NCBI RefSeq assembly: GCF_003073135.1 | Contig: NZ_PGDQ01000003.1 | Location: 1 to 64,000, forward strand | Reading direction: 5' to 3' | Length of the DNA: 64,000 nt | DNA from: Euzebya rosea | GTDB taxonomy: Bacteria; Actinomycetota; Nitriliruptoria; Euzebyales; Euzebyaceae | The notes under the pieces: model-generated | What the model saw: the letters and a program-made list of their open reading frames with translations, nothing else | The model's database searches: none | Told to the model about the DNA's origin: nothing | Position numbers and translations under genes: made by a program | Part shown: in pieces, positions 20,022-49,697 of the stretch | Layout of the letters: each line of letters starts with the position of its first letter | Numbering within the stretch: position 1 is the first letter of the stretch

Positions 20022-21476
20022 TCAGCGAGGCGTGCTGTTGCCCGGCGTCGTGCGAGCGGTGGCCAGGACGAGCTCGGCCACGCGCCGCCCCTGGGTCAGG
20101 CCGTTGGTAATGCCCATCGGGTAGTGGATGCCGCCGTAGAGCCGTGAGATGGCGGCTTCGTCGGCCGCGTGGGTGAAGCTCTCGAACCGGCGTGCGGTGA
20201 GGGTGAAGGGCGTCGGGGTCCCGTTGACGACCGGGTTGCCGGTGACCACACGGCCCTCGCTGTGGCGGTCGACGAAGGGGCGGTTGCCCAGCAGGGTCGT
20301 CAGCGCATGTGCCGCGGCCGCCGAGCTGACGGAGTGGCCGGAGGTGTACTCCGGGAACGCCGGGGTGTTCACGAACGTCGTCCAGGTCGGGTCGATGTGC
20401 TGGCGGATGTAGGTGATCGGCCGCAGCAGGTTCGTCCGGTACTTCTCGATCCAGCACGACGTGAAGGCGTCGGCGACACAGATGGCCATCAGCGTCAGCG
20501 CCTCGGCCGTGTCGCCCAGGTCCTTGCCCAGGTCCTCCGACGCTGCGCTGGCGGCCTGCAGCCAGTGGCCGGACGGCAGCCCGGTCACCCCGTCGGGGTT
20601 GTCGCGCCAGTACATCGCGGTCATCCGCTGGGCGTCGGTCAGGTTGGCCTTCGCCTCGACCACCGCCATCGCCTGCTGGTGGAAGTCCGACCCCTCCGTC
20701 GGGCTGTACGGGATGTGGGGAACGGGGGCCGCAGGACAGATCGCACGGCCCTGGTCGTCACGGGTGACCTGCAGCGCGAACGGCCGCACGCGGTGCCAGT
20801 TCGGCTCGATCGCCGCACCGAAGTTGGGGTGCGTCACCTCCCACAGGCCCGGTCCGACCGGCGGCACGTACGTGGGGCCCGCGTTGCGCTGGGCGAAGCC
20901 GTCGCCAGCGGCCCATGTCACCAGCCAGCGCCCGACGGCCTCGCCGTGGCGGACCGCCGCGTTGACGTTGGCGGCCGAGACCCCGCGGGCGAGCGTCGTG
21001 TGGGTGGACTGGCGGTGGGCCTGCAGGCCGTCGCGGACGGCCTGCGTCCGCGAGTCCGGGACACCCACCGCTACAGCCGCGGCCACGTGGCCGATGGCGG
21101 CGTTGGCGGCGATGGGCCAGTGGATCTTCTTCGCCCCGGCCACAGGGGAGGCACCCAGGCCGTTCAGCCTCCCCCCGAGCGACCGTCGGTTGGGGACGCC
21201 GTCGACGATCGCCTCCCACCCGGCCAGCATCGTCAGGCCGTAGAACCGGGCGGCCATGGTCGGCCAGGCGAAGGCCTGGGCCTGCGAGCGGTACAGCGCG
21301 CCGACCCATCCGTGCAGCACGGCGGGGTCGTAGTGCTTGGCCAGCGTCGCCGGCGTCGCGAGGGCCGGCCCCGCCCCGACCATCGCGAGGCCGAGCCCGG
21401 CACCCACGCCCTGCAGCACCCGACGACGGCTCATCCCCGTCACGTGCGAACCGCCTGTGTCGTGCACAGCGTCCAT
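20022..21476 (-). CDS. Tat-exported PAP2/vanadium haloperoxidase-like protein
   Basis: 484 residues. A twin-arginine signal (SRRRVLQG at 16-23 and hydrophobic 24-40, ending ALA) predicts export in folded form. The active-site motif of vanadium haloperoxidases and PAP2 phosphatases is present: K345-X6-R352-P, S379-G-H381 within the YTSGHS block, and S444-R445-X5-H451. The Asp that usually follows the last His by four residues is Gly455. Without biochemical data it could be a haloperoxidase or an acid phosphatase. It is divergent from a TetR regulator and convergent with the small membrane protein. Confidence 0.85.
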   Translation of the reverse strand: MDAVHDTGGSHVTGMSRRRVLQGVGAGLGLAMVGAGPALATPATLAKHYDPAVLHGWVGALYRSQAQAFAWPTMAARFYGLTMLAGWEAIVDGVPNRRSLGGRLNGLGASPVAGAKKIHWPIAANAAIGHVAAAVAVGVPDSRTQAVRDGLQAHRQSTHTTLARGVSAANVNAAVRHGEAVGRWLVTWAAGDGFAQRNAGPTYVPPVGPGLWEVTHPNFGAAIEPNWHRVRPFALQVTRDDQGRAICPAAPVPHIPYSPTEGSDFHQQAMAVVEAKANLTDAQRMTAMYWRDNPDGVTGLPSGHWLQAASAASEDLGKDLGDTAEALTLMAICVADAFTSCWIEKYRTNLLRPITYIRQHIDPTWTTFVNTPAFPEYTSGHSVSSAAAAHALTTLLGNRPFVDRHSEGRVVTGNPVVNGTPTPFTLTARRFESFTHAADEAAISRLYGGIHYPMGITNGLTQGRRVAELVLATARTTPGNSTPR

Positions 21477-21515
21477 CTCCCAGCCTCCCTCTCAGCAAGT
21501 CGATGCCGTCATGAC

Positions 21516-21547
21516 TTGACGGACGTCCAGTAAGTTACTAGCGTCAC
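21516..21547 (+). promoter_or_regulatory. Promoter with palindromic operator, TetR/PAP2 intergenic
   Basis: TTGACG (21516-21521) and TAGCGT (21539-21544) with 17 bp between form the tetR promoter. The spacer contains GGACGTCC (21521-21528) and AGTAAGTTACT (21529-21539), a perfect 5-1-5 inverted repeat ending on the -10. TGACG and CGTCA flank the whole element. A TetR dimer bound here would block the promoter and could also affect the divergent PAP2 gene. Confidence 0.6.
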
Positions 21548-21592
21548 ACAGGAGACGCCAGAAGTTGCCGGCAGGCTCGAGGAGGGAGATGG

Positions 21593-22135
21593 ATGGCGCG
21601 CCAGAACCGCAAGCAGGCCCTCCTCGACGCGGCTCTCGAACACTTCGTCCAGCACGGGTACGAGGGCACCAGCGTCGGCACCCTGGCCGACGAGGTGGGC
21701 GTCAGCAAGGCCGCCGTCTCCTACCACTTCCCGGCCAAGGACGACCTCGCCGCCGAGCTCGCCGAACCGCTCCTCGATGCGCTGGACGCCGTCGTCCCGG
21801 AGGAGAACGCCCTCCTGTCGTGGCCCGAGGGCGTGCAGCACCTCATCGAGCGGTACCTCGACGTGCTGCTGACCTACCCGGAGGTGGCGACCTGGCTGGA
21901 GGGGGACCGGTCGGTGCGGATCAACTCGCCGATCGGTCGCCGGTTGACCCACATCAACCACCGCATGCGGCGGGCCCTCGTCGGCCGGCCGCTGGATCCT
22001 CGCGCGCGCGTGGCCGCCGCCGTCGCGCTCGGGGCCCTGTGGCGTCCCGTCCGCAACGTCCCGCTCGAGGACGTGTCGCGCAACCGGGACCTCATGATCG
22101 AGTCGGCGCTGGCGCCGCTGCGGGTGGTCCGATGA
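21593..22135 (+). CDS. TetR/AcrR family transcriptional regulator
   Basis: 180 residues. N-terminal helix-turn-helix at about 5-55: RKQALLDAALEHFVQHGYEGTSVGTLADEVGVSKAAVSYHF with the TetR-type recognition helix 'VSKAAVSYHF'. The C-terminal 120 residues are the ligand/dimer domain with no recognisable ligand. GGAGGGAG is the ribosome site. Divergent from the PAP2/haloperoxidase gene and preceded by a palindromic promoter, so it probably represses itself and perhaps that gene. Confidence 0.9.
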   Translation: MARQNRKQALLDAALEHFVQHGYEGTSVGTLADEVGVSKAAVSYHFPAKDDLAAELAEPLLDALDAVVPEENALLSWPEGVQHLIERYLDVLLTYPEVATWLEGDRSVRINSPIGRRLTHINHRMRRALVGRPLDPRARVAAAVALGALWRPVRNVPLEDVSRNRDLMIESALAPLRVVR

Positions 22136-22232
22136 CCCCCAGCGCGGTGTTGCCCAAGGTGTTCGTCGGCGCTCGGCCGGCGATGCTGCGACGGCCACCG
22201 TGGCCGTCCTGTCCAGAAAGGCACGGCCCGTC

Positions 22233-25200
22233 ATGCGAGCCGCACGGGGTAGTCACGTCCTGGCCGGAGGCACCCGGCACCACACGTCCGCACGCCGAGG
22301 CCTGATCGCCGCGCTCGCTGCGCTGCTGGTCCTCGGCCAGATGCTCGCCACCAGCGGCGGGGTGCTGGCCGCCCCGCGCCCGGGCGTGGTCGGCACGGTC
22401 GCGGTCGACGGCCTGGACGGCCTGGTCGTCGACCAAGCGGGTGCCGTCGAGCTGCACCTGACCGCCGACGAGCGCACCGACCACACGACGCCGCTGCGCG
22501 CGGTCGTCCGCATCACCGACGAGTCGGGGCGTCCGCTCAACGACGTCGGTGTGTCCATCGACGGCGTCGCCGTGGACGTCGACGGCGACGGACGTGTGGT
22601 CCTGCCGACGATGGACCAGCCGCCGCTCACCGTCGCCACCCACCCCGAGCTGGTCGACGACGCCGGGCTGTCCCTGACGCTCCACCTGCGCGCGCCGGAC
22701 ACCGCCACCCGGTTCCTGACGGCCCGGCTGGTGGAGTCCAACGAACACGCGGCCGAGGTGGTCCGGCGGGCCGGGCCGGACCGGATCGCCACCGCGGTCG
22801 CCGTGTCCGCTGGGGCCTTCCCCGGCGGTGCCGACACCGTCTGGGTCGCCCGCGCGGACGAGTTCGCCGACGCGCTCAGCGCCGGCCCCGCCGCAGGCCT
22901 GGCCGGTGGCCCGATCCTGTTGACCGCCGGCGACGCGCTGCCGGACGCCACGGCGACCGAGCTGGCCCGGCTGACCCCGACCCGCGTCGTCGTGCTCGGC
23001 GGCACCGCCGCGGTCGCCGACCCGGTCCTCGACCAGATCACCGCAGCGGTCCCCGGGGCCGAGGTCGTTCGGGTGGCCGGTCCCGACCGCTTCGCCACCG
23101 CCGCCGCGGTGGCCACCGACACCTTCACCGCCCCCGTCCCGATCGTGGTCGTCGCGACCGGGTCCAGCTTCGCCGACGCCCTCTCCGGCGGGGCCGCCGC
23201 CGGGCATCACGGTGGTCCGCTGCTGCTGGTCGACCGCGACACCGTTCCCGAGGCCACGGCGGCAGCGCTGCGTGCGCTCCAGCCCGCCCGGATCGTCGTG
23301 CTCGGCGGCACCGCCGCCATCAGCGACGTCGTCGCCGGCCAGCTGGCCGCGTTCGCGCCGGGCGGGGTGGCCAGGCACGCAGGACCGGACCGCTACAGCA
23401 CCTCCGCGGCGGTCGTCGCAGCCATGTTCGACCCGGCTGACGTCGACGCGGTGTTCGTCGCGACCGGTGACGGCTTCCCCGACGCCCTCTCCGGCACCCC
23501 GGCCGCCGTCCGGTCCGGTGGGCCCCTGATGCTGGTCGGGCACGACACGATCCCCACCCCCGTGGCCGAGCAGCTCGACCGGCTCGACGTCGGCACCGCC
23601 ACCGTGCTCGGCGGTCCGGCCGCGGTCGGTGACGGCGTCGCCCAGCACCTCGGCCGCATCGTCCGTGACATCGCCCCGGACCCCGACCGTTTCAGGGACG
23701 CAGCGGTCACCCCGGCGATGCCCTTCGCCGCCCGCGACGCCGTCGACCCCGGTGGCCCCGGCGGCGGGGGAGGGGGAGGTGCGGCACCGGTCGTCGTCGA
23801 CTCGCCCACACCCGGCGCACCCCTCAACCTGCGCCCCGGTGATCGCTTCCCCGTCCGGTTCACCACCTCGACCCCCGGGACCTACGTCATCGAGTACCGG
23901 GCGGCCGGCGACAGCACGTGGTTGCCGTTCCCAAACGGCACCGCCACCGGCAGCGTCGGGACGGGGCCGCAGGTCGTGCAGCTGAACGCCCCGCTCGCCC
24001 AGGGCGTGCTGGACCTCAGGGTCACGCTCCTGCCCGCGACGAGGGCCGCCGGCGCCGGCCCCGCCCAGCGTGCCGGTGCGTCGTCCACGTCGGTGGTCCT
24101 GCCTGCGGTGGTCACCGTGGCCCTGACGTTCCCGCCGCCCCTGATCTCCGCCCTCGTGGAGGACGTGGCCGACCAGTCCCAGCTGATCGCCGTGCGCCCG
24201 GTGGGTGGCCTTGCCGACGGCGTCCGTCTCGACATCGACCTCTCGTCGGCCGAGCGGGGTGGAGCGGACTACCCGCTGGATGCGGAGGTGACGCTGCTCA
24301 ACGGCAACGGCACCGCCACGTTGGTCGTCGTCCGGGACCGAACCGCCCGCATCGAGTACACCGCCGGCCCCGGTGACAGCGTCCCCGCGCCCGGCGTCAG
24401 CCCACTCCTGACGTTCCGGATCGACCACATCACCACGGCCAACGTCCACGAGACCCACGTCGGGCAGTTCTTCCGCTACGACATCATGCACGGCGTCCAG
24501 CGGGTGTTCGCGATCGGCAGCGGGCCCTCGATCGCGAGCCCGACCGCCTCCGACGTGGCGGCCGGCAGCGGCCACACGTTCCAGCTGCTGTCCTTCGCCA
24601 TGCGCGAACCGCTGGCACCCTACGAGCGGGTCGACATCGACCTGTCCGAGGCCGAGCAGACCGTCATCGACTACGCCGACGCCTTCGTCGCCCTGCAGGG
24701 CGACGGTGGGCACGGGGCGGCGCCGAACCACGGTCCGCCGCCCCCGCCGCCCGGCAGCGTCTTCATCGACGTCGACCACGACGAACGGGCGGTGGTCACC
24801 TTCATCGCCGGGCCCGACGGCATCCCCACCGTCCAGCCCGAGGGGCCGACGCTGACCGTCTTCGTCGGCGGCATCGTCGTGGCGGACACGGTGGCGACCA
24901 CCCCGGTGGACTTCGTCAGGCTCGCCACCGGCGAGGTCGCGACCACCACCTTCACCACCCAGCGCCGTGACGTCGTCGGCCTGTCCGCATCCGACCTCGC
25001 CGCGGCCACCCCTGGCCAGGTCCAGACCATCACGATGACCCTCGACGGGGACATGGAAGCCGGCGGCGGCCTCCAGGTCGAGCTGCCTCGCACCTCCCAG
25101 GTCGACTACTCCGACATCAACGCGGTCGTCGTCGACGGCAACGGCACGGTCTTCCCCTACACCTACGACGGGATCACCGTGCTCGCCTACGACTCCGCGG

Positions 25201-26522
25201 GCGACACCGATGGGGCCACGATCACCTTCGCCATCGAGGGAGTCGACACGGGCCCCGACGACAGCTCGCACGTCGTCCGCGCCCATCGCTACGACGGCGT
25301 GATCAGCCGCAGCGCCATCTTCAGCGTCGGGGCCGGGAGCGCCCTCGCGGGGCTGACGGTGACCGACCTGCCCGACGACGCCACCGACCTGTACCAGTCG
25401 ATGTCGTTCCTGCTCACCGACGACCTCGCCGAGGGCGACACGGTGACCATCGACCTGTCCGCGGCGGAAGCCGGCCTGGTCGCCTACGACGGCGCCCTCA
25501 CCGACTCCTACGCCTTCGGTGGTGCCGACCCCGGCACCCCGTCGCTGGTGACCGTCGACGGCGTGTCCGCCGTCCTCACCTGGACCGCCGGACCCGGCGG
25601 CCTGCCCTCGGGCTCGGAGGTGTACGTCAACGCCTACGGCCACCGGACCGATGCCGGCACCGACACCTACGACGTGCCGTTCACCCTCGGCGACGGCCGC
25701 ACCGCGAGCACCTCGTTCGCCGTGCGGCCCCAGGCCGGCTTCGACGCCATCTCGGCGACCTCCCTCGAGTCCGGCGCCAACGGACAGGCCCAGACGCTTC
25801 GGGCCGTGATCCGGGGTGCGCTCGGCCCGAACGAGAGCATCTCCATCTCCCTGTCCGGAGCGGAACGAGGTGGCGGCCGCTACGGCGGGGCGACCACACG
25901 GGTCACCTCTCCGGGCGGCGGCACCAGCTCGATGTTCGTCTGGGTGGGCGAGTACGCCGACGTGACCTACACCGCCCCGGAGGGCGGCCTGGCCGACGGC
26001 AGCGAGATCGTCATCGAGGTGGACGGGGTCAACACCGACGCCGTGGACGAGACCCACCTGACGGAGTGGTACCGCTACGACTCCGGCGGCTACGGCCGAG
26101 CGCTGTTCGACATCGGGGCCGGCAGCGACTTCGTCGGGGTCCCCTACCTGAGCGACCTCGGCGTCAACCAGTCCGACCAGTACCAGTTCGGCACCTTCGG
26201 CCTGGTGGCCCCGCTCGGACCGGGCGAGACCGTGACCTTCGACCTGTCGGCGGCGCAGGCGGCCGGCGTGGACTACTCCGCAGCGTTCGAGGACTACCTC
26301 TACCCGTCGGGAACCGTGGACGTGGAGGTGGTCGGTGCCGAGGCAACCCTGACCTACACCGCTGACCCCGAGGGGTTGGAGGCGGGCGAACCGGTGTACT
26401 TCGAGGTGTTCGGCATCTCCACCGACACCCGTACCGGGACCCATTCCGTCCCGGTCACCGCCCCCGCGGCCAGCACGACGATCACCTTCCAGGTCGTCCC
26501 CGGGCACGGGTTCGGCGGCTGA
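22233..26522 (+). CDS. Large exported CW_binding_2 protein with six ~130-residue repeats
   Basis: 1,429 residues from ATG 22233 (AGAAAGG upstream; GTG 22200 is an alternative). A signal peptide ends near residue 47 (LLVLGQML...VLAAP). An Ig-like region covers about 55-170. Three CW_binding_2 repeats lie at about 175-470 (AGPDRIATA, AGPDRFATA, AGPDRYSTS with ADALSAG, VVLGGTAA). A Gly-rich hinge (about 508) leads to a beta domain, then six tandem repeats of about 130 residues to the end. Their shared core, DLS-x-AE near 667, 800, 947 (degenerate), 1070, 1204 and 1333, is followed by a TYTA-GP-GL-xxG region. A cell-surface protein; the six repeats match no family I know. Confidence 0.88.
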   Translation: MRAARGSHVLAGGTRHHTSARRGLIAALAALLVLGQMLATSGGVLAAPRPGVVGTVAVDGLDGLVVDQAGAVELHLTADERTDHTTPLRAVVRITDESGRPLNDVGVSIDGVAVDVDGDGRVVLPTMDQPPLTVATHPELVDDAGLSLTLHLRAPDTATRFLTARLVESNEHAAEVVRRAGPDRIATAVAVSAGAFPGGADTVWVARADEFADALSAGPAAGLAGGPILLTAGDALPDATATELARLTPTRVVVLGGTAAVADPVLDQITAAVPGAEVVRVAGPDRFATAAAVATDTFTAPVPIVVVATGSSFADALSGGAAAGHHGGPLLLVDRDTVPEATAAALRALQPARIVVLGGTAAISDVVAGQLAAFAPGGVARHAGPDRYSTSAAVVAAMFDPADVDAVFVATGDGFPDALSGTPAAVRSGGPLMLVGHDTIPTPVAEQLDRLDVGTATVLGGPAAVGDGVAQHLGRIVRDIAPDPDRFRDAAVTPAMPFAARDAVDPGGPGGGGGGGAAPVVVDSPTPGAPLNLRPGDRFPVRFTTSTPGTYVIEYRAAGDSTWLPFPNGTATGSVGTGPQVVQLNAPLAQGVLDLRVTLLPATRAAGAGPAQRAGASSTSVVLPAVVTVALTFPPPLISALVEDVADQSQLIAVRPVGGLADGVRLDIDLSSAERGGADYPLDAEVTLLNGNGTATLVVVRDRTARIEYTAGPGDSVPAPGVSPLLTFRIDHITTANVHETHVGQFFRYDIMHGVQRVFAIGSGPSIASPTASDVAAGSGHTFQLLSFAMREPLAPYERVDIDLSEAEQTVIDYADAFVALQGDGGHGAAPNHGPPPPPPGSVFIDVDHDERAVVTFIAGPDGIPTVQPEGPTLTVFVGGIVVADTVATTPVDFVRLATGEVATTTFTTQRRDVVGLSASDLAAATPGQVQTITMTLDGDMEAGGGLQVELPRTSQVDYSDINAVVVDGNGTVFPYTYDGITVLAYDSAGDTDGATITFAIEGVDTGPDDSSHVVRAHRYDGVISRSAIFSVGAGSALAGLTVTDLPDDATDLYQSMSFLLTDDLAEGDTVTIDLSAAEAGLVAYDGALTDSYAFGGADPGTPSLVTVDGVSAVLTWTAGPGGLPSGSEVYVNAYGHRTDAGTDTYDVPFTLGDGRTASTSFAVRPQAGFDAISATSLESGANGQAQTLRAVIRGALGPNESISISLSGAERGGGRYGGATTRVTSPGGGTSSMFVWVGEYADVTYTAPEGGLADGSEIVIEVDGVNTDAVDETHLTEWYRYDSGGYGRALFDIGAGSDFVGVPYLSDLGVNQSDQYQFGTFGLVAPLGPGETVTFDLSAAQAAGVDYSAAFEDYLYPSGTVDVEVVGAEATLTYTADPEGLEAGEPVYFEVFGISTDTRTGTHSVPVTAPAASTTITFQVVPGHGFGG

Positions 26523-26557
26523 TCGACCCGACCGGCGACCCCCGCGCCGGTTGTCCA

Positions 26558-26588
26558 CAGGCGCCGCCGGGTTTTCCGGCGGCGCCTG
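26558..26588 (+). terminator. Terminator after the large surface protein
   Basis: CAGGCGCCGCCGG (26558-26570) pairs perfectly over 13 bp with CCGGCGGCGCCTG (26576-26588) around loop GTTTT. It ends 12 bases before the TACGGT box of yraN, insulating the two transcripts. Confidence 0.8.
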
Positions 26589-26600
26589 CTGGCGTCTTCC

Positions 26601-26606
26601 TACGGT
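26601..26606 (+). promoter_or_regulatory. -10 box of the yraN-comM-dprA operon
   Basis: TACGGT ends six bases before the yraN ATG at 26613, immediately after a terminator. Confidence 0.5.
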
Positions 26607-26612
26607 GCGGAC

Positions 26613-26978
26613 ATGCACGACCGACAGCAGCTCGGCGCCCATGGCGAGGCCCTCGCGGCCGACCACCTGCGTGCCGCCGGCCACGACATCCTCCACCGCA
26701 ACTGGCGCACCTCCGTCGAGGGGGTGCGCGGTGAGCTCGACCTCGTCACCCTCGACCGGGGCACGCTGGTCGTGGTCGAGGTCAAGACCCGCCGCAGCAC
26801 CCTCGCCGGCACGGCCAGCGAGGCGGTCGGCTGGCAGAAGCGGCGTCGCCTGCGGCGGCTGACCGGCCTGTACCTGGCCGAACATCCGCACCGTGGACCG
26901 GTCCGCGGTGACGTCGTGGCCCTCGACCTCGCCGACGACGGGCGCTGGGCCATCACCCACCACCGGGGTGCGTGGTGA
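26613..26978 (+). CDS. yraN: UPF0102 family protein YraN
   Basis: 121 residues. The nuclease-like core motif GELDLVTLDRGTLVVVEVKTRRS (about 43-64) has the E-D-ExK arrangement of the restriction-endonuclease fold seen in UPF0102. N-terminus QLGAHGEALAADHLRAAGHDIL is also typical. Role unconfirmed; conserved next to comM and dprA, suggesting a DNA-processing task. Overlaps comM by four bases. Confidence 0.93.
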   Translation: MHDRQQLGAHGEALAADHLRAAGHDILHRNWRTSVEGVRGELDLVTLDRGTLVVVEVKTRRSTLAGTASEAVGWQKRRRLRRLTGLYLAEHPHRGPVRGDVVALDLADDGRWAITHHRGAW

Positions 26979-28459
26979 GCATCGGCGTCGCCCGCTCCGT
27001 GGCACTGCTCGGGCTGCAGGCCACCCCGGTCACCGTCGAAGCGCACGTCGGCGTCGGGCTTCCCGGCCTGACGGTGCTCGGCGGCACGGGGCCGTCGTTC
27101 AGGCAGGCGGGGGACAGGGTGCGGGCTGCGTTGGGTGCGGTCGGGCACTCCGTCATCCAGCGCAAGGTCCTGATCAACCTCGCCCCCGCCGACGTCGACA
27201 AGCGCGGTGCCCGGTTCGACCTGGCGATGGTCGTGGCCGTCCTGCGAGCCCTCGGTGAGCTGCCCGCGGGGGACCAGGTGTTCGTGGGCGAGGTCGCCAT
27301 CGACGGTGGGGTGCGAGGGGTCCCCGGGGTGCTGCCGAGCATCCGCGGGCTCCACGACGTGGTGGTCCCGCTCGCCAACGTCCACGAGGCTGCCGTCGGC
27401 GGGGCGTCCGCGCCCGTCGGCGTCGCGTCGGTCGAGGAGCTGCTCGCGATCCTGAAGGGGGAGGTCGAGGTGCTCCGGCCACCGCTGCCACCGGCCGACC
27501 CGCTCGACCCACCGCCGGACATGGCCGATGTGGTCGGGCAGCCCGAGGCGCGCCGCGCGATCGAGGTCGCGGCTGCCGGCGGCCACCACGTGCTGCTGCT
27601 CGGCCCGCCCGGATCCGGCAAGTCGATGCTGGCCAAGCGGCTGCCCGGGCTGCTGCCGGACCTCGACCACGAGGCCGCGTTGACGGTGGCGGCGGTGCGA
27701 TCGGTCAGCGGCCGCGTCGGCGCGGTCGACCGACTCGACGTCCGTCCACCGTTCGCCGCCCCGCACCACTCCTCCTCCGCCGCTGCCCTGCTGGGTGGGG
27801 GCAGCGGCATCGCCCGGCCGGGCGCGGTCAGCCACGCCACCCACGGCGTGCTGTTCCTCGACGAGCTGTTCGAGTGGAAGCGCCACGTCCTCGACGGGCT
27901 GCGGGAGCCGCTGGAGGAGGGGAACGTCCGGATCGCGCGGGCGGCGGCCACCGTGACCTACCCTGCGCAGGTGCTGCTGGTCGGGGCCAGCAACCCGTGC
28001 CCGTGCGGGCCGGCCCGCACCGGCTGTCGCTGCCGTCCCGACCACGTCGAGCGGTACCGAGCCCGGCTGACCGGCCCGCTGGCCGACCGCTTCGACCTGG
28101 CCCCGCTGGTGGAGGAGGTCCCGGCCGACGCCCTGGCCAGCGGCGCCCGCGGCGAACCGACCGAGGCGGTCCGCGGACGGGTGGCCCGGGCGCGGCAACG
28201 TGCGCTGGACCGGTTCGGGGTCCTCAACGCCCGTGCCGCTGCTGGCGTCGTGCGAGACACGATGTCCCGCGACGCGTTGCGTGTGCTGGTCGACGCGGCC
28301 CGACGCGGTCGACTCAGCGCCCGCGGGTTCGACCGGGCGATGCGCGTCGCCCGAACCTGCGCCGACCTGGCCGGCAGCGACGTGGTCGGCCCCGACGACG
28401 CCCTCGAGGCGGTGGCCCATCGCGGGCGGCTGGACCGGGTGTGGGAGGTGGCGGCATGA
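26975..28459 (+). CDS. comM: YifB/ComM family Mg-chelatase-like AAA ATPase
   Basis: 494 residues. An N-terminal ChlI-like domain (about 10-150, EAHVGVGLPGLTVLGG) precedes the AAA core with Walker A GPPGSGKSMLAKRLPGLLP (about 209-227) and Walker B VLFLDELFEW (about 291-300). The C-terminal Mg-chelatase-like domain holds the CxCGxxxxxxxCxC zinc-like cluster CPCGPARTGCRC. ComM is a helicase that promotes branch migration during natural transformation. GTG 26975 gives the usual 4-base overlap; GTG 26972 also possible. Next gene is dprA. Confidence 0.95.
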   Translation: MSIGVARSVALLGLQATPVTVEAHVGVGLPGLTVLGGTGPSFRQAGDRVRAALGAVGHSVIQRKVLINLAPADVDKRGARFDLAMVVAVLRALGELPAGDQVFVGEVAIDGGVRGVPGVLPSIRGLHDVVVPLANVHEAAVGGASAPVGVASVEELLAILKGEVEVLRPPLPPADPLDPPPDMADVVGQPEARRAIEVAAAGGHHVLLLGPPGSGKSMLAKRLPGLLPDLDHEAALTVAAVRSVSGRVGAVDRLDVRPPFAAPHHSSSAAALLGGGSGIARPGAVSHATHGVLFLDELFEWKRHVLDGLREPLEEGNVRIARAAATVTYPAQVLLVGASNPCPCGPARTGCRCRPDHVERYRARLTGPLADRFDLAPLVEEVPADALASGARGEPTEAVRGRVARARQRALDRFGVLNARAAAGVVRDTMSRDALRVLVDAARRGRLSARGFDRAMRVARTCADLAGSDVVGPDDALEAVAHRGRLDRVWEVAA

Positions 28460-46124: not shown

Positions 46125-49100
46125 CTAGGACTCCAAGACGGCTTCGGCGGCGTCACACGCCGCCTGCGCGGCGAGGCAGACCACGACGGTGCCCGACTCG
46201 GCCGGCGCGAACGCCGACTCGAGGAAGGACATGGTCTCCGTCGGCAGGTCGTCGCCGTTGGCCAGCAGGATCGGGGCGTCGGTGGACGCCGACAGCGCGG
46301 CAGCGGTGAAGCCCGCCACCCACGACTGCGCGTCCTGTCCCTCGACCACGATCACGCGCTCGGCCGGGTTGCTCGCGTCGAAGCCACGTGCCTCGGCGAT
46401 CGCAACCGCGGTCGCGAACCGGTTGGGGCCCTGCACGCGATCCGTCGACAGACCCAGCGCCTCGACGGCGTCCAGGACCACATCGGCGATCGCTGCGGCG
46501 CCACCGATGGCGGTGACGTCGTCGGCCGACGTGGACTGGAGGTGGGTCGCCGCCGAGCCGTTCAGCTCGTCGGACTGGGTCAGCAGCAGGCCGGTGCCGG
46601 CCTGTGCCGCCCACCCACCGGCAGCCAGCGAGTCGGCGAACGCCTGGGTGGCGTCCGACGACCCGTCGGCGGGATAGGCCCGGGCCAGCAGGAGCCCGGC
46701 GTCGTCGGCAGCCGCCTCGGCGATCGCAACCGCCGTCTCGGTCCGGGTCGCACCAGCGATGCGGGTGACGGAGAAGCCCTCCGCCTCGAGCTCGTCGGTG
46801 ACGGCCTCGCTGATGGCCGCGGTGCCACCGAGGACGATGACGTCGTCGACACCGAGCCGCTGCAGCTCCGCGAGGACTTCCGGCTCCAGCTCGTCGGCCT
46901 CGTTCAGCAGCAGCGAACGGCCGTCGGTCTGCAGGGTCCCCGACGCAAGGGCGTCGGCGAAGACGGTGTCGGAGGCGACGAGTGCGCTGTCACCGGCCTG
47001 GGCGAACGCCCGCGTGCCGGGGTTGGTCAGCTTCGACAGCTCGATGGACAGGTCGGTCGGGTCGGCGTCGTCGACGCCGCCGGGGGTGATGGACAGGACC
47101 CGGTCGGGACCCTCCGTCGGCTCCTCGGTGGGCGTCTCGGTCGGGGTGACCGGACCGGGGTTGGGGCCCGGACCCGGGTTCGGGGTCGGGGTCGGCGTGG
47201 GGGTGGGGGTCGGCGTCGGGGTCGGCGTCGGTGCCGGCTCGAAGCGGACGGTCACCTGCTGGGGGTCCGACACGTTGCCGGACGCATCCACGGCGATCCA
47301 GCGCAGGACCGTCTGCTCGCTGATGGTCAGCGGCATGGGGATGTCACGGATGTAGCGCCGCTCGATGACCGGCGAGTCCAGGGTGGGCTCGCTGCCGTCG
47401 GTCGTGTAGTGGATGGTGGCCGGTTCGTCGGAATCGAAGGTGACGTCGACCGGTTCCTCGAACCACTGGTCGTCGGCGATGTTGGTGGAGGTGACCGGCG
47501 CCTGGGTGTCCTCGCCGAAGGCCTTGACGACCTCCAGCAGGCCGTACATGCCGCTGGCGAACTCCATCGCCTGGTAGAAGCCCTCCTCCTCGAAGTCGGG
47601 CTGGAACCCGGTGCTGTCCCAGGAGTCGTCGACGGCGTCGTAGATGCGCGCACCGACCTCGAAGTTGAACGCGAAGATGTCGGGGTCGCGACCGACCTCG
47701 GTCTCCTCGTCGACGTACTCGTAGTAGTGGTCGTCGGCGGAGTTGCCGGCGGCGGAGTACAGGACGTCGATGACGGGGCCGGCACGACCCGGCTCGATCA
47801 CCGTGCCGCGGAAGGACTTGATGTCCTGCAGGATCGACTCGGCGGTCACCTCGAAGTACTCCTCGATACCGGCCGTCGGACGCGGCAGGGTGACGCGTCC
47901 CTCCTGGATGTAGGACGCCGGGGCCCACATGAAGTACCCACCGTGGGAGTGGGTGTTCATCGCGAACTCGATGTTGGGGTAGGTCGCGGCCAGCCACATC
48001 TCGTTGCGGGCCTCGGGTTCGCTGCCCTCGGCAGGACCGGCGTAGGTGCCGCTCGTGCACGACGTCGTGCTAGCGCCGTCGTAGCCGTCGTGGGCGCTGC
48101 CCACCCGGTAGTTGCGGTTCAGGTCCACACCCATGGAGTTCCACCGACCCGTGTCGGAGTTGTCCGGGGTGCAGTAGTTGGTCATGCTCTTGCGCTGGAA
48201 GTTGTAGTCGTACATCGAGAAGTTCGTGCCGTCGGGGTTGACGGTCGGCACGATGAAGATGTCGAGGGTGTCGACCAGCGTGGTGGTGGCCGGGTCGGTG
48301 CCGTAGTTGGCGGTCAGGCGGTGGGCGGTCTCCAGGCACACCAGCGGGGTGACCCACTCACGCGCGTGCTCCTGGCAGTAGATCATCACGCCGGGCCGGG
48401 TTCCGTCGCGCTGGGCACCGATGCGGAGGGCCCGTACCTGGGCAGGTTCACGGGAGATGTGCTCGGGTGCGGAGAGGCGGTCGCTGAGGGGGTAGGTCCC
48501 GGCGAGGACGGGGCTGGTGCCGGCACTTCCCCGGTAGGTGTGCGCCGAGCCCATCGCCGCGACGGCCGGGTTGCCGTTGAGGGCGTCGACGACCTCCGCC
48601 GCGGTGGCGATGGCGTTGCTGTCGCCGTCGGTGGCCAGCGTGACGGTGATGGTCGTTCCGTCGACCGCCACGGCGGTGGTGGCGTCCGGCGTGCCCGGGT
48701 TCTCCAGGACCAGCGTCCAGTCGTTGCCCCCTTCGCTGCCGTAGGCGTCGCTCAGCAGGTACATGACCTGGTTCGAGCTGGTGCCCGCGGACTGGGCGAT
48801 CGCCTGGCGGCGGTAGCCGTTGGTGAGGTACGGCAGGTCGATCATCTCGGTGATGCCCGGGTTGTACGCGGCGATCTCGATGATCTCCTGGGTGATCTGG
48901 ACCGCGTCCATGTACCCCTCGTTGGTGAAGCCCCACTCGAACTCGGCGGGGAACGGGGTCACCGAGCCGGACGTCCACTGGCGGGTCGGCACGGTCGTGG
49001 ACTCACCGTCGTCGTTGCTGACGGTCACCTGGGCCGGCGGCGACACGACGCGCTCGGGCGAGCTGAAGCGGTGGTACATGTACTGCCCGGCGTCGGTGAA

Positions 49101-49697
49101 GCGCGACATCGGGAACTCCTGGCCGTTCGCGGTCACGGTGAGGACGTCGCCCGATCCCTCCTCGGAGTGCGCTTCCACGGAGATGAAGATCCCGACGCTG
49201 TTGGCGAACCAGTCGGCCCGCAGGACGTCGATGTAGCGATCCTCCACGACCGGGGCGGGTGAGGGGGTGCTCTCGGCGAAGGCCGCCATCTCGGCTTCCG
49301 CGACGACGCGTTCCTGCATCTCCTCCGGCTCGACGAGGACGTTGCCGTACAGGTCGTCCTGCAGGTCCTCCAGGGTGGGGGCGGGCGCGCTGTCCACGAT
49401 CCGTGCGAACCCGGGCAGCGCCTCGGCCTGGCCGTCGCTGGCGAGGACGCTCAGCTCCCAGCCCCCGTCGTCGGCGGCGTTCACCTCGGCGACGTCGTAG
49501 CCGGCCGTCTCCAGCATCTGGATGTGGGTGGAGTCGGGCACGTGGACCAGCAGGAACTGCGTCACGGACTCATCGGTGACCCGCTGGTCGGCGTCGGCAT
49601 CACCGGACAGGGGCAGGGTCGCCAGCAGCAACGCGGCGACCGGGATCAGTACCGCGATACGCGACACCAACCGTGTGCGGACAGGGGACAACGGCAT
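46125..49697 (-). CDS. Exported M14 zinc carboxypeptidase with CW_binding_2 anchor
   Basis: 1,190 residues. Signal peptide 1-36. A prodomain-like region is at about 40-270. The M14 catalytic core has zinc ligands H444 and E447 (HAREW), Arg near 527 (VDLNRNYR), the third-ligand His near 582 (NTHSHGG) and catalytic Glu near 677 (FNFEVG). A ~110-residue domain of flagellin-like beta character interrupts the core at about 325-430. A chitobiase-like Fn3 (CHB_HEX_C) domain covers 735-815, then (PT)n linker near 821-846 and three or four CW_binding_2 repeats to the end. GGAGTC is the ribosome site. Confidence 0.9.
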   Translation of the reverse strand: MPLSPVRTRLVSRIAVLIPVAALLLATLPLSGDADADQRVTDESVTQFLLVHVPDSTHIQMLETAGYDVAEVNAADDGGWELSVLASDGQAEALPGFARIVDSAPAPTLEDLQDDLYGNVLVEPEEMQERVVAEAEMAAFAESTPSPAPVVEDRYIDVLRADWFANSVGIFISVEAHSEEGSGDVLTVTANGQEFPMSRFTDAGQYMYHRFSSPERVVSPPAQVTVSNDDGESTTVPTRQWTSGSVTPFPAEFEWGFTNEGYMDAVQITQEIIEIAAYNPGITEMIDLPYLTNGYRRQAIAQSAGTSSNQVMYLLSDAYGSEGGNDWTLVLENPGTPDATTAVAVDGTTITVTLATDGDSNAIATAAEVVDALNGNPAVAAMGSAHTYRGSAGTSPVLAGTYPLSDRLSAPEHISREPAQVRALRIGAQRDGTRPGVMIYCQEHAREWVTPLVCLETAHRLTANYGTDPATTTLVDTLDIFIVPTVNPDGTNFSMYDYNFQRKSMTNYCTPDNSDTGRWNSMGVDLNRNYRVGSAHDGYDGASTTSCTSGTYAGPAEGSEPEARNEMWLAATYPNIEFAMNTHSHGGYFMWAPASYIQEGRVTLPRPTAGIEEYFEVTAESILQDIKSFRGTVIEPGRAGPVIDVLYSAAGNSADDHYYEYVDEETEVGRDPDIFAFNFEVGARIYDAVDDSWDSTGFQPDFEEEGFYQAMEFASGMYGLLEVVKAFGEDTQAPVTSTNIADDQWFEEPVDVTFDSDEPATIHYTTDGSEPTLDSPVIERRYIRDIPMPLTISEQTVLRWIAVDASGNVSDPQQVTVRFEPAPTPTPTPTPTPTPTPTPNPGPGPNPGPVTPTETPTEEPTEGPDRVLSITPGGVDDADPTDLSIELSKLTNPGTRAFAQAGDSALVASDTVFADALASGTLQTDGRSLLLNEADELEPEVLAELQRLGVDDVIVLGGTAAISEAVTDELEAEGFSVTRIAGATRTETAVAIAEAAADDAGLLLARAYPADGSSDATQAFADSLAAGGWAAQAGTGLLLTQSDELNGSAATHLQSTSADDVTAIGGAAAIADVVLDAVEALGLSTDRVQGPNRFATAVAIAEARGFDASNPAERVIVVEGQDAQSWVAGFTAAALSASTDAPILLANGDDLPTETMSFLESAFAPAESGTVVVCLAAQAACDAAEAVLES

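Follow-up and report, generated by a model that had tools for sequence, protein, structure and literature searches.

What kind of domain makes up the C-terminal part of a large predicted surface protein of Euzebya rosea, and what might such a protein do? The gene lies in the first 64,000 nucleotides of contig NZ_PGDQ01000003.1 (hereafter the window) and encodes 1429 residues ending in six repeats (R1–R6), which a first-pass annotation made from the letters alone had described as tandem copies of an unrecognised surface domain. From N- to C-terminus the protein comprises a signal-peptide-like start, three CWB2 cell-wall-binding domains, a glycine-rich linker and the six repeats (Table 1). We consider it likely to be a secreted surface protein, held non-covalently in the cell wall, whose six sandwich domains project as a stalk or adhesin. 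Judged by sequence searches, the repeat is a domain family unlisted in protein libraries, set within an ordinary kind of surface protein.

Six related repeats behind a predicted CWB2 anchor

With borders set at the start of each copy's opening phrase, R1–R6 abut without spacer after residue 633 (window 24132–26519) and share 20–39% identity between pairs. Twelve of the 15 pairs outscored all 200 shuffles in both directions (Smith–Waterman), the exceptions being R2–R3, R3–R4 and R3–R6, in which 7 to 11 of 200 shuffles scored equally high; R3 is tied to the array through R5 (z 12–13) and R1 (z about 9). The claim of six tandem copies of one domain is thus borne out, and the spacing of 123–147 residues given for them is that of the copy lengths in Table 1. 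The extent first assigned to the array, 24230–26522, needed correction at its start, as the true start is 24132, about 100 bases earlier, and 24230 falls inside R1. The motif DLSxAE, said to be shared with copy three diverged, is exact in R1, R2 and R4 (3 of 6); R5 (SLSGAE) and R6 (DLSAAQ) each deviate from it at a single position and R3 lacks it, while the TYTA-GP-GLxxG and GI-TD-TH-V blocks are present in the alignment but loose.

An orthologue with six copies in the same order was found in another genome of the genus (G003; L004:7552–11778, 1408 residues), its repeats being 66% identical to those of the window. A tree was inferred from 15 copies, comprising the window's six, the six of G003 and three from a contig described below (L036); the same 15 rows make up profile A2. 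In this tree every copy of G003 groups with the copy at the equivalent position in the window, which together with the shared order indicates that all six copies already existed when the two species separated. A moderately supported split divides the copies into an odd and an even subtype (supports 73/76 and 82/87), so the array resembles three units of two domains each, and it probably arose by growth from one such unit.

The N-terminal part of the protein agrees with the earlier description of a surface protein. Across the protein, hydrophobicity over 19 residues is highest in the stretch that begins at residue 24, within the putative signal peptide, and CWB2 is matched in three stretches at 158 bits against a curated cut-off of 24.9, no other Pfam family scoring above its cut-off on the protein. 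GGPILL, GGPLLL and GGPLML at residues 225, 327 and 429 are the ILL-type motifs of the three CWB2 domains, the latter two being conservative variants. In Clostridioides difficile wall proteins, a triple CWB2 set is described as anchoring through the ILL motif (PMC4973711, in the parts consulted). The window protein resembles these CWB2-anchored (PF04122) proteins in its three tandem domains with ILL-type motifs, but differs from them by an attached domain that is in neither Pfam nor NCBIfam. NCBIfam yielded one match for the protein, the clostridial S-layer protein SlpA, which scored 46.3 bits where the cut-off is 650 and was confined to the CWB2 part. No LPxTG sortase signal was found in the protein, nor a hydrophobic C-terminal tail (best 19-residue hydrophobicity 0.9 in the last 60 residues, compared with 1.9 at the N-terminus), so that CWB2 is the only anchor seen.

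A ribosome-site-like GAAAGG precedes the ATG at 22233 and is also present at the start of the G003 orthologue. Nonsynonymous divergence (dN) is lower than synonymous divergence (dS) in each of nine segments compared between the two genes, which argues that the frame is real; it also passed the codon-position filter. An antisense open frame of 1637 residues (22092–27005, reverse strand) spans the whole gene. As it fails that filter, it is probably a shadow frame of the high-GC sequence. Neither lysine nor cysteine occurs in the window protein (0/1429) or in the G003 orthologue (0/1408), compared with 2.2% lysine across 25 other open reading frames (ORFs) of the window. The 796-residue repeat region contains 106 acidic and 30 basic residues.

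Family searches, predicted fold and distribution of the repeat

The absence of a named family, as claimed in the first-pass annotation, held in every library searched with the repeats. A Pfam scan of the 15 repeats (E-values up to 10, with filters that drop weak matches) returned 12 families with one member each and a best E-value of 0.0013, none convincing. This best match, to DUF6334, was set aside as a lone one (1 of 15 repeats), the L036 protein scoring 14.6 against a cut-off of 25 bits. The Ig-like families Big_5, Big_9 and PKD were each matched by one of the 15 repeats (best E-values 0.034–0.092), none over its cut-off, and the Pfam cohesin family was matched by neither the surface protein nor any of the repeats. 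The result named beforehand as contrary, in which the repeat would match an existing Pfam or Ig-like family with confidence, was sought by sequence and not found. Nor was there a significant repeat match in PHROGs, in NCBIfam (best E-value 0.17) or among PDB sequences (best E-value 0.29 with a single repeat and 0.052 with the profile), and no paper on this protein appeared among work on cell-wall-binding repeats of Euzebya or Nitriliruptor or among the listed matches for Euzebya genomes and surfaces.

An AlphaFold model of R5, for which the alignment input was the window's six copies only, shows a sandwich of nine strands, with a single short helix at DLSxAE (predicted local distance difference test, pLDDT, 96.0; predicted template modelling score, pTM, 0.89), in line with the beta-sandwich first suggested. 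The top PDB match in Foldseek is YcnI (E-value 1.6e-4), and a second structure comparison ranked YcnI (Z 10.5), SpaD pilin (10.1), cohesin (9.9), integrin (9.9) and BslA (9.5). With these top folds separated by about one Z unit, the comparison favours none of the families over the others. Overall fold is alike in SpaD (4hss), cohesin (2vo8), BslA (4bhu) and YcnI (7mek), with root-mean-square deviations of 2.6–2.9 Å over 106–118 residues, but identity is 3–13% and no sequence relation is detectable. Surface-stalk or adhesion modules (the pilins SpaD, LrpA and BcpA, cohesins and BslA) are among the best fold matches, and no match to the R5 model was found in a viral structure library at E ≤ 0.001. 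As modelled, the repeat belongs to the very common Ig-like/cohesin-like/cupredoxin-like sandwiches; the domain is thus unnamed by sequence yet not structurally strange. Many pilins contain Lys–Asn isopeptide bonds or disulphides; without lysine or cysteine, the window protein would form neither.

The domain was rarely encountered elsewhere. Across the class, profile A2 matched three of 66 genomes at E ≤ 0.001 (G000, G003 and G008), all of which had supplied rows to it, and 17 further genomes only at E-values of 0.0375–0.98. Ten of these weak frames were inspected; among them are what by eye we take to be threonine-dehydratase-like, RimM-like (RNA-processing) and riboflavin-synthase-like proteins, along with some shadow frames, so the weak matches were regarded as chance. 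A profile search over the phylum, limited to 14 first-look candidates from each genome, found two of 296 genomes (G000 and G008), and a single-protein search among relatives found three of 61. Searches in the phyla of a Prolixibacteraceae genome (0/296) and a Shewanellaceae genome (0/299) had no positive control and are uninformative. No match was obtained in plasmid and phage sequences, and none was confirmed in viral contigs. Among genome contigs none was confirmed by a search with the surface protein, and a degenerate pattern retrieved five stretches, of which only L036 contained the domain.

L036 (PUKE01000078.1) is a 3.4-kb contig of 44% GC binned in Nitriliruptoria bacterium B1Sed10_92 (G008), a genome otherwise put at 72–76% GC, and its protein carries three consecutive, diverged but near-full-length copies at the C-terminus. 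A profile of the window copies only scores 67.6 bits on this protein and finds the three domains, so the relationship does not depend on rows added to the profile later. No CWB2 was seen in its truncated ORF. In the same bin, six further readable contigs that were sampled have 60–76% GC (a seventh read as masked), and a dockerin/Big_4 gene adjoins the repeat gene; L036 thus appears to derive from another organism and is probably misbinned. The samples searched were without Firmicutes, the likeliest home of this low-GC contig. Taken with L036, the repeat domain probably spans phyla. As it stands, the gain is a modest one in annotation, by which protein libraries would acquire an unlisted domain family and the CWB2 surface proteins of Nitriliruptoria, whose annotation is blind to function, a first dissected example.

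Conservation along the protein and possible roles

Divergence from the G003 orthologue is uneven along the protein. While dS differs little between the anchor and R1–R6 (0.60–0.74), dN is 0.144 in CWB2, 0.129 in R1 and 0.149 in R2, rising to 0.372 in R3, 0.491 in R4, 0.311 in R5 and 0.274 in R6. The inner pair is therefore constrained like the anchor, whereas R3–R6 evolve roughly two to four times as fast. Because dN stays below dS in all nine segments, positive selection was dropped as an explanation, and relaxed constraint accounts for the pattern as well as pressure from outside does.

Under the reading that we favour, a wall-anchored stalk or adhesin, the signal peptide would export the protein and the three CWB2 domains would hold it to a cell-wall polymer. 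The glycine linker would give freedom of movement, and the six sandwich domains would extend away from the cell as a stalk built of three domain pairs. Of these, R1–R2 as the inner pair would probably pack in the wall or surface layer, and the outer R3–R6 would probably face the surroundings, contacting other cells, surfaces or phages. Wall anchoring is here read from homology, and any further function is put forward as a proposal. Several points weigh against this reading. The fast change of R3–R6 fits relaxed constraint as well as outside contact, and support for the odd and even subtypes in the copy tree is moderate. A rigid two-domain rod was abandoned because the joint model of R5–R6, in which the second half repeats the same strand order, is poor (pLDDT 72.3, pTM 0.57) and its junction poorly predicted, so that a stiff stalk finds no support in the models.

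A possible, if rather unlikely, alternative is that the array acts like that of C. difficile CwpV, which is reported to cause aggregation and to block phage infection after adsorption (PMC4737114, PMC3080850, as far as these sources were consulted). By layout, the two proteins share the order of signal peptide, three CWB2 domains, glycine-rich linker and C-terminal tandem repeats (same sources), and both have long C-terminal arrays, of units broadly about 80–130 residues in size, and a surface role, predicted in the window protein. All five unrelated CwpV repeat types are described as protective, with more protection lost as more repeats are removed (PMC4737114, in part), so other repeats of unrelated sequence might serve equally well. 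However, the 195-bp invertible CwpV switch with its 21-bp inverted repeats, which lies between promoter and ORF, cannot fit in the 97 bases between the TetR stop and the surface ORF, and among 25 of the 29 inverted-repeat pairs found in 21400–22400 no 21-bp pair was present, those listed being short or weakly matched; an upstream phase switch was accordingly discarded. The sequence TFVNY, before which CwpV is cleaved, does not occur in the window protein, although a different site may be used. CwpV has 4–9 repeats of 79–120 residues, with high similarity inside each type; the window protein has six, of 123–147 residues and far less alike. The linkers correspond in part, being Ser/Gly-rich in CwpV and Gly-rich, not Ser-rich, in the window protein, where a segment of 117 residues follows. 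CwpV also comes from another phylum and is under RecV control where the window gene has an adjacent TetR gene. No PADLOC match was obtained, the presence of a CwpV model in PADLOC being unchecked. Lacking the DNA switch and the cleavage sequence, the window protein was not filed as CwpV; were the likeness functional, wall-anchored repeat arrays would protect against phages outside Firmicutes. The fuller proposal of a new cross-phylum sandwich family forming a TetR-controlled, CwpV-like phage shield, with a fixed inner pair, an outer set driven by phages or partners and a mobile PAP2–TetR–surface block, strikes us as very improbable.

About as likely as the CwpV-like action of the array, and so rather unlikely, is a structural role for the protein, in the surface layer or as a spacer, with no specific ligand. 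The SlpA match and the inner copies, as conserved as the anchor, are in keeping with such a role, but the gene is missing at the locus in two of the four genus genomes. The CWB2 repertoire of these genomes is very large, with at least about 155–163 matches in each of G000, G001, G002 and G003 when at most 150 first-look candidates were scored per genome. Together, these observations point to one accessory protein rather than the main layer. A role of the repeats as YcnI-like (DUF1775) domains that bind copper or are otherwise catalytic is scarcely credible. YcnI led both structure comparisons (in the second with 2.7 Å over 113 residues and 13% identity), but its lead over SpaD, cohesin and integrin domains is no more than 1 Z unit, which amounts to a tie. 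The YcnI site is described as needing an N-terminal His, Glu and Trp (PMC8424229, in the part seen), whereas the window repeats are internal, with no free N-terminus and no shared His as first residue, and contain three Trp in their 796 residues; in the filtered Pfam scan at E-values up to 10, none of the 15 repeats matched the DUF1775 family. A YcnI-like copper site was therefore rejected.

Table 1 Features of the surface-protein locus in window coordinates
Feature	Position	Strand	Basis
PAP2-superfamily protein, twin-arginine-like start, divergent from TetR	20022..21476	-	PF01569, E 3.7e-9
Promoter-like TTGACG-17-TAGCGT over imperfect palindrome (weak)	21514..21544	+	identical in G003
TetR-family regulator	21593..22135	+	PF00440, E 3.6e-15; order kept in G003
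Surface-protein gene, 1429 residues	22233..26522	+	ATG start, stop included; translation
Putative N-terminal signal peptide, about residues 1–47	22233..22373	+	charged start, hydrophobic stretch, LAAP end
N-terminal segment, residues 48–165	22374..22727	+	no Pfam match; 60% identical to G003 orthologue
Three tandem CWB2 (PF04122) domains	22728..23672	+	Pfam, three stretches
Glycine-rich linker GGPGGGGGGG (glycine run at residues 510–516)	23745..23780	+	sequence
Linker-to-repeats segment, residues 517–633	23781..24131	+	sequence only; no Pfam match
R1, odd subtype, 133 residues	24132..24530	+	pairwise scores, alignment, tree
R2, even subtype, 147 residues, proline-rich insert	24531..24971	+	pairwise scores, alignment, tree
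R3, odd subtype, most diverged, 123 residues	24972..25340	+	pairwise scores, alignment, tree
R4, even subtype, 133 residues	25341..25739	+	pairwise scores, alignment, tree
R5, odd subtype, 130 residues, modelled as nine-stranded beta-sandwich	25740..26129	+	pairwise scores, model
R6, even subtype, 130 residues	26130..26519	+	pairwise scores, two-domain model

Gene neighbourhood

The gene order DUF2469, PAP2 (divergent), TetR, surface gene, yraN and comM is the same in the window and in G003, while in G001 and G002 the filtered ORF lists show ribosomal and comM genes at the locus without PAP2, TetR or the surface gene between them. PAP2, TetR and the surface gene thus form a lineage-specific three-gene block. 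Identity between the window and G003 is 97% for yraN, 94% for DUF2469, 93% for comM, 92% for TetR and 79% for PAP2. The TetR and surface genes may share one transcript. The palindrome at 21514..21544 is a weak candidate for a TetR site; it matches at 16 of 22 positions, a level that 323 of 63,979 stretches of the window attain, and was for that reason dropped as an operator upstream of TetR. A sigma-70 promoter scan reported no site there, and regulation of the surface gene by TetR is accordingly a guess. Elsewhere in the window (46125–49697, reverse strand), a second CWB2 protein combines an M14 zinc carboxypeptidase with chitobiase C-terminal-like and Fn3-associated domains and three CWB2 stretches.

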